DNA from: a virus
Virus record (IMG/VR): IMGVR_UViG_3300006108_000034
Coordinates: 1 to 35,590 of that record
DNA: 35,590 nucleotides
Reading direction: 5' to 3' (one strand)
Positions 7,163 through 18,824 of the stretch are shown here, one piece after another. Under the pieces are notes generated by a model. That model did no database searches and had not been told where the DNA came from. It saw only the letters and a program-made list of their open reading frames with translations. The number at the start of each line of letters is the position of its first letter. Within the stretch, counting starts at the first letter, position 1. Made by a program: the position numbers and the translations under genes.

Positions 7163-7410
7163 ATGCACTAGATCGATCTAGGCGTCACTTATTATTAAGT
7201 CAGACCAATTATATTAATCATTTAATATGGGCAATCAAAGGTGGTGTCATACTAATTTGTATTGGTATGGCAAGCATCATTCATGCATTCTTTCCATTTA
7301 TGTTTGAAGGTACAACTGCCAAGAATGTTATTAAAATATTCTATGAGCATTTGTATAAACATCCAAATCCAGAGTATAAGAAATTAATTAAGGAATACAA
7401 TAATGAATAA
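7159..7410 (+). CDS. DUF6356-like membrane protein, 83 aa
   Basis: The protein has a central hydrophobic segment (about residues 27-47) that ends in IIHAFFPFMFEGTTAKNVIK. The HAxxPFxFExT pattern after a membrane segment matches my memory of the DUF6356 family, whose function is not known. The start overlaps the upstream stop (ATGA), and the end overlaps the halogenase gene by eight bases. Coupling to the halogenase may mean a shared process; this is inference. Confidence 0.6.
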   Translation: MNALDRSRRHLLLSQTNYINHLIWAIKGGVILICIGMASIIHAFFPFMFEGTTAKNVIKIFYEHLYKHPNPEYKKLIKEYNNE

Positions 7411-8566
7411 GATAGCAATCATTGGCGTTGGATCTGCTGGTATACAGGCACTGTGTCATTACTGTGCTTGGTTGGATGATTGGGAAATTACATCTATACA
7501 TCAGCCAAACATTCCAATTGTTGGTATTGGCGAGAGCACAAATCCTCCATTCTTAGATAGTATTATGAAAGGATTATTGTTCGATCACAATAAAGATCTC
7601 GAACAATTAGATGCCACAATTAAATTGGGCACAAAGTATGTCAATTGGAGAGAGCACGAGTTCAATAATCCATTTATCGGTGGTAATCTTGCAATACACA
7701 TGAACACATTTAAATTAAAAGAATTCGCATTCGCACGATTGAAGGATATGTGGGGGGATAAATTCTCTGTTATCGAAGGAAATGTCGATAGCCTACACAA
7801 CACAGATAATAAGGCAGTTGTTGTTGTGGATGGCAAACCAGTAGAGTTTGATTATGTGATGGATTGTAGAGGTTTTCCCAAAGATTATACTAATTACACA
7901 GTGTTCGAGAATGCGCCGCTCAATCGTGGATTGGTGCACAATGGGCCTGTTGTTAAGGATTTGATATACACATTACACGAAGCAACTCCTGATGGCTGGA
8001 TGTTTGGTGTGCCTCTGTCTAATAGAATGAGTTACGGATATATGTTCAATGATAACATAACAGATATTGACACAGCTCGTGAGAATTTCTCCAAGCAAAT
8101 TGGTGTTACTGCATTAGATAATACAGAATACAAATTTAAATACTTCTATTCTAATAATATATTGGATGGTAGAATTATTAAGAATGGTAATAGTGCATTC
8201 TTTTACGAGCCAATGTTTGCCAACTCTCTATTCGTCTACGACAGAATTAATAGATATTTCTATGAGTATATGTTCGGCACAAAATCTGATGTAATGGTAG
8301 ATTATGATTTCAATAGAATAGCAAATGAGATACACGAGATTATTTGCTTGCATTACTCTGGTGGATCTACGTTCGACACACCATTTTGGACTCATGCCAA
8401 ACAGTATGGTAGAAATGTATTAGACAAAAGTATTAATTACTTTATATTCAGAGATGTTATTAGTCAATTTGAAAAGAACAAATCTTGGATACGGTACGAG
8501 AATTATAGATGGGCTGGATTCAGTTTACAGAATTTGTTATCAATACAAACTAACATGGGATTGTGA
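7403..8566 (+). CDS. Flavin-dependent (tryptophan-type) halogenase homologue, 387 aa
   Basis: Known members use FADH2, oxygen and a halide to halogenate aromatic substrates such as tryptophan. Seen here: an N-terminal dinucleotide fold with GVGSAG at 8-13, a GIGESTNP motif at 41-48, and an ATIKLGTKYVNW segment at 71-82 that should hold the conserved active-site lysine (K74 by position). A DCRGFP segment lies near 154-159. WMFGVP at 199-204 corresponds to the WxWxIP signature with Phe in place of the second Trp. A late LHYSGGSTFDTPFW segment also fits. At 387 residues it is shorter than the 500-540 usual for bacterial enzymes, but homologues of this kind are known in T4-type phages. The substrate is unknown. 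It overlaps the genes on both sides. Confidence 0.8.
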   Translation: MNKIAIIGVGSAGIQALCHYCAWLDDWEITSIHQPNIPIVGIGESTNPPFLDSIMKGLLFDHNKDLEQLDATIKLGTKYVNWREHEFNNPFIGGNLAIHMNTFKLKEFAFARLKDMWGDKFSVIEGNVDSLHNTDNKAVVVVDGKPVEFDYVMDCRGFPKDYTNYTVFENAPLNRGLVHNGPVVKDLIYTLHEATPDGWMFGVPLSNRMSYGYMFNDNITDIDTARENFSKQIGVTALDNTEYKFKYFYSNNILDGRIIKNGNSAFFYEPMFANSLFVYDRINRYFYEYMFGTKSDVMVDYDFNRIANEIHEIICLHYSGGSTFDTPFWTHAKQYGRNVLDKSINYFIFRDVISQFEKNKSWIRYENYRWAGFSLQNLLSIQTNMGL

Positions 8567-13104: not shown

Positions 13105-13449
13105 ATGAAACATATTATTCTGGCAGCACTACTTCTTACAACTCCTGCTCTGGCAGAAGATAGACCAAAGGAAATTATTGGTTGTGGCCCAAAAGAAAAA
13201 ATCAATAAAATATTAAAAGAATCAAATTTTGCTGTGTTGTATCGTGGAGAAGGACTATCTAATACTTACGTTGAGACTTGGATTAATGGTGGTGGTGCCA
13301 TTACTATTTCTTATGATAAACCAAAAGATAATAAAGCAGAGAACATCAAATCAGTATGCGTTCAATCTGTCGCTGCTCAGGTAATGTATAATAGTGACAC
13401 TGTGGAGATACTCAACAAAGCATTAGACAAGACATCTCCAAAATTGTGA
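13105..13449 (+). CDS. Exported (periplasmic) hypothetical protein, 114 aa
   Basis: MKHIILAALLLTTPALA followed by Glu-Asp is a classic signal peptide with an ALA cleavage site at about residue 17. The mature part of about 97 residues is Lys-rich with two Cys and has a WINGGGAITISYD strand region. It would act in the periplasm. GGAGAACAA lies before the ATG. No family is recognised. Confidence 0.65.
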   Translation: MKHIILAALLLTTPALAEDRPKEIIGCGPKEKINKILKESNFAVLYRGEGLSNTYVETWINGGGAITISYDKPKDNKAENIKSVCVQSVAAQVMYNSDTVEILNKALDKTSPKL

Positions 13450-13994
13450 TGTTAAAGGCAACCTACACAGGTAATATTGACGAAATAAAGAAAACAGTAT
13501 ATAATATGGTTGAAGAGTCCATGAAGTTGGACGCTCACGATTTATTCTTAACAAGGGCACACACAACTGCCTTTGTTAAGAATGGCAGAAAACTTCATAC
13601 TCTATCTGAGTTTGATGAACTTAATGATTTTATATCATCTAATGGTAGACAATGTTTTGAGAATTCTAAAATTGTAATGGCATGGGCAAATGTATATCCA
13701 ACAGGTTCATATATCAGACCACATAAACATATAACATTTGACAATCTCATAAGTGCTGTGTTTTATTTACAAGGTAATGGCGTATTACACGTTGGTGAAC
13801 ATACTTATAGTTTAGAACAAGGAGAAACATTGTTTTTTCCATCTAACGTTGAGCACTGGTCTGAGCCAAATAAAAACGAACAAGATCGTGTTATGATAGG
13901 ATATGATCTCTATCATGGAGATAAAACGGATAAAGAAATAGAAATAATTATAAAAGGATTTGAGGAATTCATTAAACACGGAGTAATAAAATGA
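13449..13994 (+). CDS. Cupin-fold protein, probable 2OG-Fe(II) oxygenase-like, 181 aa
   Basis: The ATG at 13449 overlaps the previous stop (TGATG). Residues 78-155 hold a W.N.Y..G.Y..PHKH core with H92 and H94, then VFYLQGNGVLHVGEH, then VEHWS with H136 and R147 in QDRVMIGYDL. This layout resembles the putative 2OG-Fe(II) oxygenase group TIGR02466, but the usual HxD is HxH here. A non-oxygenase metal cupin is the alternative. The substrate is unknown. Confidence 0.65.
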   Translation: MLKATYTGNIDEIKKTVYNMVEESMKLDAHDLFLTRAHTTAFVKNGRKLHTLSEFDELNDFISSNGRQCFENSKIVMAWANVYPTGSYIRPHKHITFDNLISAVFYLQGNGVLHVGEHTYSLEQGETLFFPSNVEHWSEPNKNEQDRVMIGYDLYHGDKTDKEIEIIIKGFEEFIKHGVIK

Positions 13995-14146: not shown

Positions 14147-14728
14147 ATGATGATTATCATGGATAATCTATTAAGTCAAAAAGAAGTAGATAAGATACAT
14201 GATATATTGTGTGGGCATGATTTTCCATGGTATTATAACCCAAACACTATCAATAAAGACTTAGAAAGTTCATTCTTTAAAGATAACAACACAATGAACA
14301 CAGGTCAGTTTACTCATTCGTTTTTTGTTGATGGTTCCATAAAATCTAATTATTTTCGTTTGGTTTATCCATTTTTGTTTTTATTGGAAAAGAAATTTAA
14401 TAAAGATTTTATGCCGAAATTATCAAGAATAAAAGCAAATCTATTGGTCAAGAACAATTTATTCTCGGGCGAACAATATAATTACCCGCATGTAGATTCA
14501 AATTTTTTCCCTGGCGAAAGTTTATTATATTACGTTAATGACTCTGATGGGGATACTTTTATATTTAAAGAGAAAAAAGATGACAAATTTGAGAATGTTA
14601 CACTTGACAGGAGAATAACTCCACAAAAAGGAAAATCTATTTTCTTTGATTCTGATTATTATCATGCTAGTAGTTGTCCAATTAAATCAGATAAAAGAAT
14701 AGTGATCAATTTTTTATTTCATAAATAG
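14147..14728 (+). CDS. 2-oxoglutarate/Fe(II) oxygenase, 193 aa
   Basis: Iron ligands are visible as H115 and D117 (YNYPHVDSNF) and H173 (DYYHASSCP), with R184 (KRIVINFLF) for 2-oxoglutarate. The spacing is typical of phage prolyl-hydroxylase-like enzymes. The start could be 14147, 14150 or 14159; an AGAAGAG run sits upstream of the first. Codon use is strongly AT-rich. It ends in CATAAATAG, which also contains a variant late-promoter box. Confidence 0.8.
   Translation: MMIIMDNLLSQKEVDKIHDILCGHDFPWYYNPNTINKDLESSFFKDNNTMNTGQFTHSFFVDGSIKSNYFRLVYPFLFLLEKKFNKDFMPKLSRIKANLLVKNNLFSGEQYNYPHVDSNFFPGESLLYYVNDSDGDTFIFKEKKDDKFENVTLDRRITPQKGKSIFFDSDYYHASSCPIKSDKRIVINFLFHK
14720..14727 (+). promoter_or_regulatory. 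Possible variant T4-type late promoter
   Basis: CATAAATA differs from the T4 late box TATAAATA in one base. It lies about seven bases before the presumed 5' end of the tmRNA gene and overlaps the oxygenase stop codon. It could start tmRNA transcription at the late stage; weak evidence. Confidence 0.35.
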
Positions 14729-14732
14729 TAAT

Positions 14733-15020
14733 TGCCGAGGTCGTTGAGAGAAACGAAATAAGCATTCAGGACCTGGGGGCAGTACCCAGCTGGTCCACCA
14801 TAAACAGATAACAACTGGACGCAGGCTCAATGAAGTAGGCCTCGGCTTGATCACCGAGAAGGTATGGAGAGTGTTATCTGTTTATGATGGGCCAGAAATT
14901 AGGATCGACTGGTGTGGTAAAGGTTTAAGGAGACCAAAGACAACGTTCAGGTGCCAACGACAACTACGCACCATTTGAGATTGCTCTAGCAGCATGATCA
15001 TTGGGTCCGCCAGAACCTCG
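14733..15020 (+). ncRNA. ssrA: Circularly permuted (two-piece) tmRNA
   Basis: The 3' acceptor piece comes first. A T-arm (CTGGG, loop GGCAGTA, CCCAG at 14773-14789) is followed by CTGGTCC and ACCA ending at 14800. The 5' coding piece comes second, starting GGGCCAG at 14889. GGGCCAG pairs with CTGGTCC as the seven-base acceptor stem (one G-U) and is followed by a D-like AATTAGGATCGACTGG segment. The tag frame at 14953-14997 reads ANDNYAPFEIALAA then TGA, closely like known tags that start with ANDN and end in small residues. Known alphaproteobacterial tmRNAs have this permuted order and a GGCAGTA-type T loop. CGAGGT (14736-14741) can pair with ACCTCG (15015-15020) to join the pieces. The outer ends are approximate. 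It would rescue stalled ribosomes with SmpB, presumably from the host. Confidence 0.9.
14801..14888 (+). other. tmRNA intervening segment, removed on maturation
   Basis: This 88-base stretch joins the CCA end of the acceptor piece to the 5' end of the coding piece. TAAACAGATAAC at 14801-14812 is a perfect 12-base complement of 14873-14884. The precursor acceptor stem would therefore be extended by a long hairpin that brings both processing sites together. Confidence 0.75.
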
Positions 15021-15054
15021 AAACAGAATCTGGCAATTAATTTGGAGAAGTAAA

Positions 15055-15198
15055 ATGGCTAAATTGAGTAAGACGCAACGATTAATTATGAAGTTCTATA
15101 AGGCTATCTCTGATAAGAATGCTAAGAAAGAACGTAAGCTCTGGCTTAAACTCGTTAAGAAGAGTCTTAAAGGTAAGAATACACATCCAATAGTTTGA
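15055..15198 (+). CDS. Small basic protein, 47 aa
   Basis: The ATG at 15055 follows TTGGAGAAGTAAA; a longer frame would run into the tmRNA. The protein MAKLSKTQRLIMKFYKAISD and onward is strongly basic (many Lys and Arg), helical and Trp-poor. Its charge suggests nucleic acid or ribosome binding. It sits between the tmRNA and tRNA-Arg genes. The role is unknown. Confidence 0.55.
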   Translation: MAKLSKTQRLIMKFYKAISDKNAKKERKLWLKLVKKSLKGKNTHPIV

Positions 15199-15209
15199 AT
15201 ACACAGAAA

Positions 15210-15284
15210 GGTTCCGTAGCTCAGCAGGATAGTAGCAACTGCCTTCTAAGCAGTAGGTCGCATGTTCGAATCATGCCGGAATCA
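15210..15284 (+). tRNA. tRNA-Arg (anticodon TCT)
   Basis: A full cloverleaf can be drawn. Acceptor stem is GGTTCCG with CGGAATC (one G-U) and discriminator A. D stem GCTC is present. Anticodon stem ACTGC with GCAGT encloses loop CTTCTAA, giving anticodon TCT. T stem GCATG with CATGC encloses TTCGAAT. No CCA is encoded. It would read AGA codons, which are frequent in this phage's genes. Confidence 0.93.
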
Positions 15285-15292
15285 CATAAGCA

Positions 15293-15341
15293 CTCCGATT
15301 GTATAAATAGCGATGACAATAAGACTATTATACAATCGGAG
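15293..15341 (+). promoter_or_regulatory. RBS-sequestering hairpin containing a late promoter
   Basis: 15293-15306 is a perfect 14-base complement of 15328-15341, with a 21-base loop. The 3' arm contains most of the GGAGG ribosome binding site of the endonuclease gene. TATAAATA, the T4 late promoter box, lies at 15302-15309 across the end of the 5' arm. A late transcript would start after the 5' arm and would lack it. The hairpin should silence early read-through mRNA while late mRNA is translated. Confidence 0.85.
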
Positions 15342-15350
15342 GTTAGCACT

Positions 15351-16010
15351 ATGTACTATACTATTTATAGGATTACAAATAATATAAACGGTAAATATTA
15401 TATCGGAATGCACAAAACAAAAGATCTAGAAGATAATTATATGGGTTCTGGAAAATATTTGAAACGTGCCATAGAAAAACACGGCGTAGAGAACTTTTCA
15501 AAAGAAATTCTTTATGTATATGACAACGAATCAGATATGAAGAACAAAGAAAAAGAATTAGTTATAGTATCAGAACAAACATACAATCTGAATGAAGGCG
15601 GATATGGTGGTTTCAGTTTTATTAATAGAAATAAAATGAATAACGGAAGAAGATCCGAAGAGTCTGAGAAAAGAAGATTAAAATCTCTTTCTGAAACTAG
15701 AAAATTGATGATGAAAGATGAAAAAGAAATAATTCATATGAAAACTATTTCGAAAATAGGAAGAGAAAAAGTAAAACAAATTTACCCAGAGGGAACTTGG
15801 AAAAACAGAAAACACAAACAAGAATCTATTGATAAAATGAAAGAAAAACATAAAAACAATGGTCATCAAAAAGGATCTAAAAATTCTCAATATGGAACTT
15901 GTTGGATAACAAATGGAAAAGAGAATAAAAAAATCAAAACGGAAGATATTGACAAATATTTAAATTTAGGTTATACTAAAGGTAGAATTCTAAATATGGA
16001 GAAGAAATGA
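15351..16010 (+). CDS. GIY-YIG homing endonuclease (Seg/I-TevI type), 219 aa
   Basis: I start the gene at 15351, after GGAGGTTAGCACT; a longer frame from 15195 would run through the tRNA and the hairpin. Residues 1-90 form a GIY-YIG nuclease domain: YTIYRI at 3-8, YYIGMHKT at 16-23, and E69 as the likely metal-binding glutamate. The C-terminal half has NUMOD3-like basic helices and an end segment GTCWITNG with KGRIL, typical of DNA-binding modules of phage homing nucleases. It is free-standing, beside RNA genes. Such enzymes cut an allele lacking the gene and so spread by repair. The target is probably nearby or at the same locus in related phages. Confidence 0.9.
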   Translation: MYYTIYRITNNINGKYYIGMHKTKDLEDNYMGSGKYLKRAIEKHGVENFSKEILYVYDNESDMKNKEKELVIVSEQTYNLNEGGYGGFSFINRNKMNNGRRSEESEKRRLKSLSETRKLMMKDEKEIIHMKTISKIGREKVKQIYPEGTWKNRKHKQESIDKMKEKHKNNGHQKGSKNSQYGTCWITNGKENKKIKTEDIDKYLNLGYTKGRILNMEKK

Positions 16011-16411
16011 AAAAGTATCTAATTGCATTATGTATTGCTTTCTCTACTCCTGCCATGGCAGATTATGATGTTGTAATATCAAAACGTCATCAGACTATGG
16101 AAGTATACCAAGATGGAGAGTTACTAGATGTTTGGCCAGTATCAACAGCCCGTAAAGGATATTCTACACCTTCGGGAACGTTTAATGTCCAGTCTATGGA
16201 ATCCATGCATTATTCTAGATTATATGATATGTCTCCTATGCCTTGGTCTATTTTCTTCAATGGAAATATTGCTATCCATGGCACTCCGCATATAAGCGGA
16301 TTAGGTTCTCCGAAATCACATGGTTGTGTTCGACTTAGTCCCAGTAATGCAGCAATTCTTTATGACCTCGTGAAATCAAATCGCAATCAAACAACCATCA
16401 CAATCAAATAG
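16007..16411 (+). CDS. Secreted L,D-transpeptidase (YkuD fold), 134 aa
   Basis: MKKYLIALCIAFSTPAMA is a signal peptide cleaved near residue 18. The mature domain has H91 in AIHGTPHISG and the catalytic motif SHGCVRLS at 104-111 with Cys107 as nucleophile. Family members act in the periplasm and form 3-3 cross-links in peptidoglycan or attach proteins to it. The domain is complete but small. The start overlaps the endonuclease stop (ATGA). A cell-wall cross-linking enzyme in a lytic phage suggests wall remodelling or protection during infection; that purpose is inference. Confidence 0.88.
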   Translation: MKKYLIALCIAFSTPAMADYDVVISKRHQTMEVYQDGELLDVWPVSTARKGYSTPSGTFNVQSMESMHYSRLYDMSPMPWSIFFNGNIAIHGTPHISGLGSPKSHGCVRLSPSNAAILYDLVKSNRNQTTITIK

Positions 16412-16786: not shown

Positions 16787-17257
16787 ATGTTTATCAAGAT
16801 AGTAGGTAAACCCAAGAAAGATTTATCTACCTATATTGTTAAGAAAGCTGCTCGGTTCTATGGCGAATACTTACTTGGAACTAAACTCTCCAAGAACATT
16901 GATCTAACAATTGAATTTGAGAATTTTGATAGAGGATGTAACGAGTACGCTTACTGCGACTGGACCGATGACAATCATCGAGCCAGAGATTTCCTCATAA
17001 CTATAGACTCAAAATTACCCAAAAAAGAGATCCTATTGGCGCTTGCCCACGAGATGGTGCATCTTAAGCAATACGCCAAGGGAGAATTAAAAGACATATT
17101 TCGTCCAGTTCGTATGACTAAATGGTTGGGCGAAAAATATGACAGCGACAACATGGATTATTGGGAACAACCTTGGGAAATAGAGGCATATGGCCGAGAG
17201 AAAGGGTTGTTTGTTAAATTTATGAATATATTGAAAGAGGAAGATGAACCCTTATGA
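16787..17257 (+). CDS. Zinc metallopeptidase-like protein (HExxH), 156 aa
   Basis: The ATG at 16787 follows GGGAGTATCAA. HEMVH at 88-92 is the zinc-binding and catalytic motif. A glutamate in WEQPWEIEAYGRE (131 or 133) is the likely third ligand, as in gluzincin or SprT-like proteins. Similar short proteins are common in T4-type phages, where their substrate is unknown. It separates gp33 from gp59, which are adjacent in T4. The end overlaps gp59 by 14 bases. Confidence 0.75.
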   Translation: MFIKIVGKPKKDLSTYIVKKAARFYGEYLLGTKLSKNIDLTIEFENFDRGCNEYAYCDWTDDNHRARDFLITIDSKLPKKEILLALAHEMVHLKQYAKGELKDIFRPVRMTKWLGEKYDSDNMDYWEQPWEIEAYGREKGLFVKFMNILKEEDEPL

Positions 17258-17819
17258 TTGTTACCGTGAGTATCTAGGTCTTAAGAACCATTTCTCGAAA
17301 CCAGATTATGATTATTTCAAATACAATGGAAAGATGCGAGCCAATCCAGCATCTTTCCAGAAACGTAAAGATAAGATATTCTTCGAGAAACTAGCCAAAC
17401 ATCCAGAGGTTCATGACTTTCTTGTTGCTAATCTGGCAGATAACAACAAACTATGGATAAGAGACTTAGCATATACGCCAGAGCCAGAGCAAACATACCA
17501 GACATGGAAGAAAAGACAACAGTCTCTTGGCTATACGTTTAAAAATGAAATAGAAAAACTAGAAACTCCATTCAATAATAATTTTATCTGTAGAGAAGGA
17601 GAACATCCTGTTCTTTTCAGATTATATCTTTCAGGCAGCATATGCTTGGAAACTCTTTGTATTCTGTTAGATTTAACAGGAGCAAAGAAACACTGGGACT
17701 CTAAGATGAAATATGATCCTGTATGGGATGAATACAGCTTAAGAGTGAAAAAATATACTCCATTCATTGTGTATGATAAGGACAAGTACCGTAAGATAGT
17801 TCTTGACTTTTATGGTTGA
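17244..17819 (+). CDS. gp59: Replicative helicase loader, gp59-like, 191 aa
   Basis: The protein begins MNPYDCYREYLGLKNHFSKP with YDYFKYNGKM at 23-32 and a QKRKDKIFFEKLAKHPEVHD segment, which fits gp59 of T4-type phages. T4 gp59 (217 residues) loads the gp41 helicase on single-stranded DNA covered by gp32. The gene lies just before gp32, as expected from T4 (33, 59, 32 order). A late RVKKYTPFIVYDKDKYR end is basic. The gp32 promoter lies in its last codons. Confidence 0.82.
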   Translation: MNPYDCYREYLGLKNHFSKPDYDYFKYNGKMRANPASFQKRKDKIFFEKLAKHPEVHDFLVANLADNNKLWIRDLAYTPEPEQTYQTWKKRQQSLGYTFKNEIEKLETPFNNNFICREGEHPVLFRLYLSGSICLETLCILLDLTGAKKHWDSKMKYDPVWDEYSLRVKKYTPFIVYDKDKYRKIVLDFYG

Positions 17820-17897: not shown

Positions 17898-18824
17898 ATG
17901 GACTTCAAGTCACTTAAATCATCATCAGGTTCAAAGTCACTAAACGCTCTAACAGAAGAACTCAATAAGATTTCTAACCAAGAAGGTGGAGGAAAGAAAG
18001 GCGATGATCGCTTTTGGACTCCCACAGTTGATAAGGCTGGTAATGGTTATGCTGTTCTTCGTTTTCTACCCGCTCCCCCAAATGAGGATGTTCCTTTTAT
18101 CCGCATGTTCGATCATGGTTTCCAGGGACCAGGTGGCTGGTATATTGAAAACTCACTAACAACTATTGGTAAACAGGATCCAGTTTCTGAGTATAATTCT
18201 AAACTCTGGAACTCGACAACTGACGACAAATCACCAGAGCGTGAACAAGCTCGTAAACAGAAGCGTCGTCTTCACTTTGTTAGCAATGTTTATATTGTTC
18301 AGGATCAAGCAAATCCTTCCAACGAAGGTAAGGTTTTCTTGTTTAAGTATGGTAAGAAAATCTTTGATAAGTTGAAGGAAGCAATGGAGCCACAGTTTGA
18401 GGACGAAACTCCAATGAATCCATTTGATCTTTGGGCAGGCGCTAACTTCAAACTCAAGATCCGTAATGTTGAAGGTTATCGTAACTATGATAAGTCAGAG
18501 TTTGGTAAGTCAGAGCCATTACTTCAGAACGATTCTGAACTCGAGAAGGTATGGAATTCTGAACATTCGTTGAAGGCATTCCTTGATCCTTCTAATTTCA
18601 AGAGCTACGAAGAACTAAAGGCCAAGTTGGTTAAGGTTCTTTCCGGTGAGACTTCTCTTAAGATTAAGAAGGCAGAAGAGGAGGATGTTCCTTGGTCACG
18701 TTCAGAGGAAGCACCAACTCTTAAGGCAAAGTCAGCTCCATCTTTTGAATCTGCAAAGGTTGGTGGTATGACTGATGACGACGACGATGAGTCGTTGGAA
18801 TTCTTTAAGAGCCTCGCTGGCTAA
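17898..18824 (+). CDS. gp32: Single-stranded DNA-binding protein, gp32, 308 aa
   Basis: The layout follows T4 gp32 (301 residues): a basic N-terminus for cooperative binding (MDFKSLKSSSGSKSLNALTE), a core with FWTPTVDKAGNGYAVLRFLP, GWYIENS and KVFLFKYGKKIFDKLK, then GANFKLKIRNVEGYRNYDKS, and an acidic C-terminal tail (DDDDDESLEFF) for partner binding. The protein has no cysteine at all, so the His/Cys3 zinc site of T4 gp32 is absent; the matching stretch reads ENSLTTIGKQDPVSEYNSKL. It coats single-stranded DNA in replication, recombination and repair. GGAGATAATAC precedes the ATG. Confidence 0.95.
   Translation: MDFKSLKSSSGSKSLNALTEELNKISNQEGGGKKGDDRFWTPTVDKAGNGYAVLRFLPAPPNEDVPFIRMFDHGFQGPGGWYIENSLTTIGKQDPVSEYNSKLWNSTTDDKSPEREQARKQKRRLHFVSNVYIVQDQANPSNEGKVFLFKYGKKIFDKLKEAMEPQFEDETPMNPFDLWAGANFKLKIRNVEGYRNYDKSEFGKSEPLLQNDSELEKVWNSEHSLKAFLDPSNFKSYEELKAKLVKVLSGETSLKIKKAEEEDVPWSRSEEAPTLKAKSAPSFESAKVGGMTDDDDDESLEFFKSLAG

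Follow-up and report, generated by a model that had tools for sequence, protein, structure and literature searches.

A circularly permuted tmRNA gene at a conserved place in a group of T4-like phages, and candidate protein genes in the spacers of its relatives

Introduction

Transfer-messenger RNA (tmRNA) releases stalled ribosomes and puts a tag on their incomplete proteins. A first-pass annotation of a viral genome fragment (IMG/VR record IMGVR_UViG_3300006108_000034, positions 1 to 35,590; this whole stretch of 35,590 nucleotides, with a G+C content of 36.8%, is called the window here) placed a two-piece, circularly permuted tmRNA gene among the genes of a T4-type phage. The locus raises the questions of whether this gene is complete, whether it was captured from a host or belongs to the phage lineage, and what it might do during infection.

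Two-piece tmRNA in phages has already been published. Buchholz and colleagues (2022) described one in the Methylophilales phage Melnitz (PMC9004378), and the same work reports 53 two-piece forms among 133 tmRNA structures of isolated phages, nearly all of them aquatic, together with permuted tmRNA in 17 of 47 Melnitz-like contigs (PMC9004378). The tmRNA database holds 79 phage tmRNA sequences (PMC11915505). What is added here is the near-universality of the gene in one phage group and, in some relatives, probable protein genes in the spacer.

A complete permuted tmRNA gene in the window

Positions 14733-15036 of the window (+) are a complete circularly permuted tmRNA gene of the alphaproteobacterial type. 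The covariance search that had been proposed as a check on the first-pass annotation (Rfam cmscan, run on the window) matched both RF01849 (alpha_tmRNA; 14696-15037, 90.4 bits, E 1.9e-23) and RF04321 (tmRNA_permuted; 14739-14997, 79 bits, E 1e-13). Both models were matched over their full length, and both scores are far higher than the gathering scores of 50 and 47, respectively. The parts that the annotation had named, namely a T arm with ACCA, GGGCCAG, a tag and a stop, were all located. The piece bearing the CCA comes first and the coding piece bearing the GGG second, with complementary acceptor strands, as follows.

14720..14727 (+): CATAAATA, a T4-late-promoter-like box (consensus TATAAATA) with no -35 box; from sequence, function predicted
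14733..14800 (+): first piece, with T arm, 3' acceptor strand, discriminator A and encoded CCA; from the RF01849/RF04321 alignments, 5' end predicted
14773-14789 (+): T arm; from sequence
14790-14796 (+): acceptor 3' strand CTGGTCC; from sequence
14797-14800 (+): discriminator A, then CCA (14798-14800); from sequence
14801..14888 (+): spacer of 88 nt, expected to be removed; fold z = -5.0
14889..15036 (+): second piece, with acceptor 5' strand, D-loop region, tag frame and terminal hairpin; from RF01849/RF04321, 3' end predicted
14889-14895 (+): acceptor 5' strand GGGCCAG; pairs with CTGGTCC at 7/7 positions
14953-14997 (+): tag frame ANDNYAPFEIALAA (14953-14994) and stop TGA (14995-14997); from sequence
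15009-15034 (+): terminal hairpin GCCAGA/TCTGGC, which closes the second piece; from sequence

The pairing of the acceptor strands had been called perfect, and all seven pairs of GGGCCAG with CTGGTCC do form, one of them being the G3-U70 wobble, the alanine identity pair. The span originally given, 14733-15020, was too short at its end, as the second piece passes 15020 to reach the hairpin, and the alphaproteobacterial model extends to 15037. The tag frame opens with GCC, the resume codon, and closes with GCA GCA TGA, which gives a hydrophobic -AA end and a stop. The CCA piece together with the spacer folds at -63.2 kcal/mol, compared with -43.2 kcal/mol for shuffles (z -5.0). ARAGORN, when run on the window, reported a tRNA-Arg only and not the tmRNA gene.

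The promoter-like box is one base off the consensus, with C for the first T, and transcription is predicted to start after it, at about 14733-14735. A [TC]ATAAAT motif between -58 and -34 relative to the T arm is present in 74 of the 142 phage tmRNA genes sampled and in none of 109 bacterial ones, against a mean of 2.4 in shuffles. A TTGACA-like -35 box precedes this motif by 16-18 nt in 53 of the 74 genes and is absent in the other 21, the window included. The box fits a T4 late promoter and, where the -35 box accompanies it, would also fit a sigma-70 promoter; which promoter class acts is something we infer from these motifs.

Conservation and synteny in related phages

In the window, the tmRNA gene sits among T4-type genes, 5' of gp33-gp59-gp32 and on their strand. 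The assignment to a T4-type phage agrees with the surrounding genes, which match the gp33, gp59, gp32, gp2, tail tube and baseplate families. The genes that follow the tmRNA and those used as syntenic markers are listed here.

15055..15198 (+): ORF of 47 aa directly 3' of the tmRNA; no family match
15210..15285 (+): tRNA-Arg (TCT); ARAGORN, RF00005 59.6 bits
16535..16753 (+): gp33-like late-transcription coactivator, syntenic marker; phrog_254 E 2e-15
17244..17819 (+): gp59-like helicase loader, syntenic marker; phrog_269 E 1e-57
17898..18824 (+): gp32-like single-strand DNA-binding protein, syntenic marker; phrog_224 E 5e-110

Several other genes of the window deserve mention. Two 2OG-Fe(II)-oxygenase-like genes (13446-13994 and 14147-14728) lie immediately 5' of the tmRNA. 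Just 3' of the tRNA-Arg is a homing endonuclease gene (phrog_314, GIY-YIG-like start; 15351-16010), upstream of which TATAAATA occurs at 15302, and between this gene and gp33 is an L,D-transpeptidase (YkuD) gene (16007-16411), with a related gene in 16 of 80 gp59 loci. A tryptophan-halogenase-like gene (7403-8566, PF04820 E 1e-32) is unusual cargo; it had no relative in the fetched viral loci, which span only part of each genome.

Contigs of 65.6 and 49.2 kb have a gp59 with 100% identity to the window's, and their tmRNA spacer and tag are likewise those of the window. When baseplate proteins are compared, the isolated phages closest to the window, at 34-39% identity, are Stenotrophomonas DLP_6, Caulobacter Cr30 and Sinorhizobium phages; a BLAST-type query of phages with the baseplate DNA gave no match.

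Viral contigs were searched with a pattern that covers the T arm and the acceptor end of permuted tmRNA; it gave at least 120 loci, and at least 119 matches, the window included, had both halves. This viral sample consists of the pattern matches listed and is not random, and since the pattern fixes the TCCACCA end, counts of G3-U70 outside the window are not evidence. A relative of gp33, gp59 or gp32 was found in about 46 of 118 tmRNA loci among the matches listed, always downstream and on the same strand, and these loci had been fetched without regard to gp59. As an independent sample, 50 viral contigs were picked by a gp59 relative alone, not by tmRNA. RF04321 matched in 47 of them, in 44 over the cut-off. 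The three contigs with no RF04321 match may be fragments; because of them, the tmRNA may be dispensable in the group. In all 38 loci where the distance was measured by script, tmRNA and gp59 share a strand, with the tmRNA 631-2865 nt upstream.

The tmRNA thus appears to be nearly universal in one group of T4-like phages, and we read its locus as a conserved place and not a chance capture. The gene does not seem general to T4-like phages, because no permuted tmRNA was found in cyanophages S-SCSM1 and P-SSM2, marine virus AG-345-L05, Caulobacter phage Cr30 or Sinorhizobium phage phiM12. The picture moves from some marine phages having a tmRNA to a whole T4-like group keeping one near its replication genes, and ribosome rescue would thereby be a regular part of infection in that group.

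Two isolated phages carry comparable loci. Melnitz (MZ577097) likewise is a T4-like phage with an alphaproteobacterial-type permuted two-piece tmRNA upstream of gp33 and gp59. Unlike the window, however, it has a glutamine riboswitch (RF01739) at the 3' side of the tmRNA, whereas Rfam cmscan found none at gathering score in the window. Its tag is ANDNYVPVDYALAA and its spacer 142 nt, compared with ANDNYAPFEIALAA and 88 nt in the window. Pelagibacter phage HTVC008M (NC_020484, 145161-145370; our locus L473) has an unannotated permuted tmRNA (RF04321 90.6 bits, RF01849 83.8 bits) that closely precedes gp33 and gp59. Its gp59 stands at the start of the record and the tmRNA upstream of gp33, in the same gene order as in the window, and its tag (ANFNEYALAA) and spacer are shorter than the window's. 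An annotated hypothetical protein overlaps the HTVC008M tmRNA on the 5' side. A BLAST of the window's locus against phages returned tRNA matches first; the one tmRNA that followed was a brief segment of Melnitz.

Origin of the gene

The first-pass annotation had held that a complete copy in such a phage implies capture from a host and points to the host group. The first of these proposals does not sit with a gene common to nearly all relatives at the same syntenic place, nor with phage tmRNAs that cluster apart from bacterial ones. In a tree of tmRNA cores, from which tag and spacer were left out (129 usable columns, many forks unresolved), the label changed between phage and bacterial 4 times, compared with 79 for shuffled labels, near-copies adding to the clustering. 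The rows nearest to the window are all phage loci, namely L241 (identical), L281 and L285. The clustering argues against frequent recent capture without arguing for a single dated origin. Recent host capture was considered and rejected, as the tree separates phage and bacterial copies; the same tree cannot date or place the acquisition. Given this near-universality at one syntenic place and the separate clustering of phage copies, the most likely history is an old acquisition followed by inheritance within the phage lineage.

As a pointer to the host group the gene is weak, since the alpha-type tmRNA of Melnitz belongs to a phage whose host is not an alphaproteobacterium (PMC9004378), and DLP_6 has a beta-type one. 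The DLP_6 gene (KU682439.2, 102838-103059; L471) is an unannotated beta-type permuted tmRNA (RF01850, 103.7 bits) that heads a tRNA cluster, apparently a separate acquisition.

The spacer and its closing helix

The window's gene resembles the alphaproteobacterial permuted tmRNA (RF01849, for example that of Caulobacter) in piece order, acceptor stem, T arm and tag ends. The alphaproteobacterial tmRNA differs in being a host gene, in having no TATAAATA box, in its separate tree cluster and in its spacer, with a median of 28 nt for bacteria versus 70 nt for phages among the matches listed (P 4e-14).

In the window, the acceptor stem is prolonged by a 13-bp helix between the two ends of the spacer (14801-14813 and 14872-14884). 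Across 105 phage spacers, a spacer's own ends pair at 9.2 of 10 positions on average, compared with 6.6 when ends are swapped between phages; in the window, 10 of the 10 compared positions pair. Most positions of the phage spacer helix show compensatory pair types. Small ORFs in spacers under 100 nt were in no excess over shuffles, and we therefore claim no gene for the window's 88-nt spacer.

The tag and a working model of the gene

The ANDN and LAA codons of tags from related phages use all synonymous codons, with stops kept, which indicates that the tag is translated and selected as protein. SmpB was not found in 18 tmRNA-bearing viral records, some of them longer than 150 kb, so phage tmRNA presumably uses the SmpB of the host. 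We consider it very probable that the gene is functional, makes a two-piece tmRNA, has been in this phage group for a long time and serves ribosome rescue via host factors. The reading, like everything here, comes from sequence comparison; it builds on gene anatomy, conservation, synteny, the positioned promoter box and the selection of the tag as protein; from these we infer expression, processing, charging, use during infection and benefit.

The steps that involve host SmpB, alanyl-tRNA synthetase, RNases and proteases rest on established tmRNA knowledge. The phage promoter just 5' of the gene would give one precursor transcript. Host tRNA-processing enzymes would then cut after the CCA at 14800 and before the G at 14889, taking out the spacer and leaving the two tmRNA pieces paired. 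Charging by the host alanyl-tRNA synthetase would proceed via G3-U70, and host SmpB and EF-Tu would deliver the tmRNA to ribosomes that broken messages have stalled. Translation would restart on the phage tag, and the tagged fragment, with its ALAA end, would pass to host ClpXP-type proteases. The likely benefit would be to keep ribosomes free while infection destroys host messages.

Another way to view the gene is as a true tmRNA whose main role would be redirected proteolysis by a different tag, longer and mostly with an ALAA end, either for the recycling of amino acids or so that particular proteins are spared or removed. Amino-acid recycling was proposed by Buchholz 2022 (PMC9004378), and phage tags are indeed longer than sampled bacterial ones (median 14 versus 12 aa) and more often end in LAA (88% versus 57%, the bacterial sample being limited). 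However, they keep the ordinary ANDN start and LAA end, as for the common ClpXP tag, and we regard this role as unlikely to be the main one. It is highly doubtful that the phage RNA is instead a decoy, competing with host tmRNA or SmpB and thus blocking rescue or tagging: the tag-less tmRNA of phage DS6A does inhibit endogenous tmRNA when expressed in E. coli, as recounted in PMC11915505, but a decoy needs no tag, whereas here protein-level selection preserves the tag frame with its ANDN start, its LAA end and its stop. Finally, although phages commonly capture host genes sporadically, a functionless passenger or decaying gene recently taken from a host is barely credible, being already contradicted by near-universality in relatives at one syntenic place, by compensatory changes in the spacer helix, by selection on the tag and by the clustering of phage copies apart from bacterial ones.

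Probable protein genes inside the spacers of relatives

In relatives of the window, the excised tmRNA spacer is probably a home for protein genes, both HNH (505-520 nt) and small proteins (about 110-270 nt), with the closing helix kept. The loci concerned are as follows.

L270 3896-4409; L357 2501-2962; L364 1233-1655: HNH homing endonuclease gene in the tmRNA spacer, closing helix kept
L050, L113, L051, L040, L115, L009, L036, L062, L240, L090, L101, L028, L037, L112: small conserved ORFs filling long tmRNA spacers

The tmRNA halves are 514 nt apart in L270 (the same contig as L363), 520 nt in the L293-type contigs (near-identical and counted as one event) and 505 nt in L364, and the ORF that fills each of these spacers has HNH homing endonucleases as its relatives (phrog_655 E 7e-14; PF01844 slightly under the cut-off). 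In L357, L364 and L270 the matches to the Rfam tmRNA models span the insert, and 7 of the 28 HNH relatives found sit inside a tmRNA spacer. Among spacers of 150-300 nt, an ORF covers at least 70% of the length in 14 of 16, compared with 0.7 in shuffles. The pN/pS ratio is 0.25-0.45 in five groups of homologous small spacer ORFs and in the HNH pair, as for protein genes.

If this reading is true, a single transcript would serve as messenger as well as tmRNA precursor, and an RNA gene without an intron could house a mobile endonuclease, tRNA-type processing removing the spacer. Open-licence papers on permuted tmRNA spacers, and on homing endonucleases together with tmRNA, yielded no report of genes in the spacer; an earlier one elsewhere is possible. 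Nested spacer genes would give homing endonucleases and small phage proteins a niche that is apparently undescribed in that literature.

One family of 62-aa phage proteins (L384-L463) has 16 of its 80 fetched relatives in tmRNA spacers; other members adjoin tRNA or tmRNA genes, directly after them, or sit elsewhere. Several of the spacer ORFs take their stop codon from the 3' end of the spacer, TTTATGAT, and for this reason unrelated proteins share a C-terminal VSL, namely the HNH proteins of L270 and L293 and the 62-aa proteins of L050 and L113.
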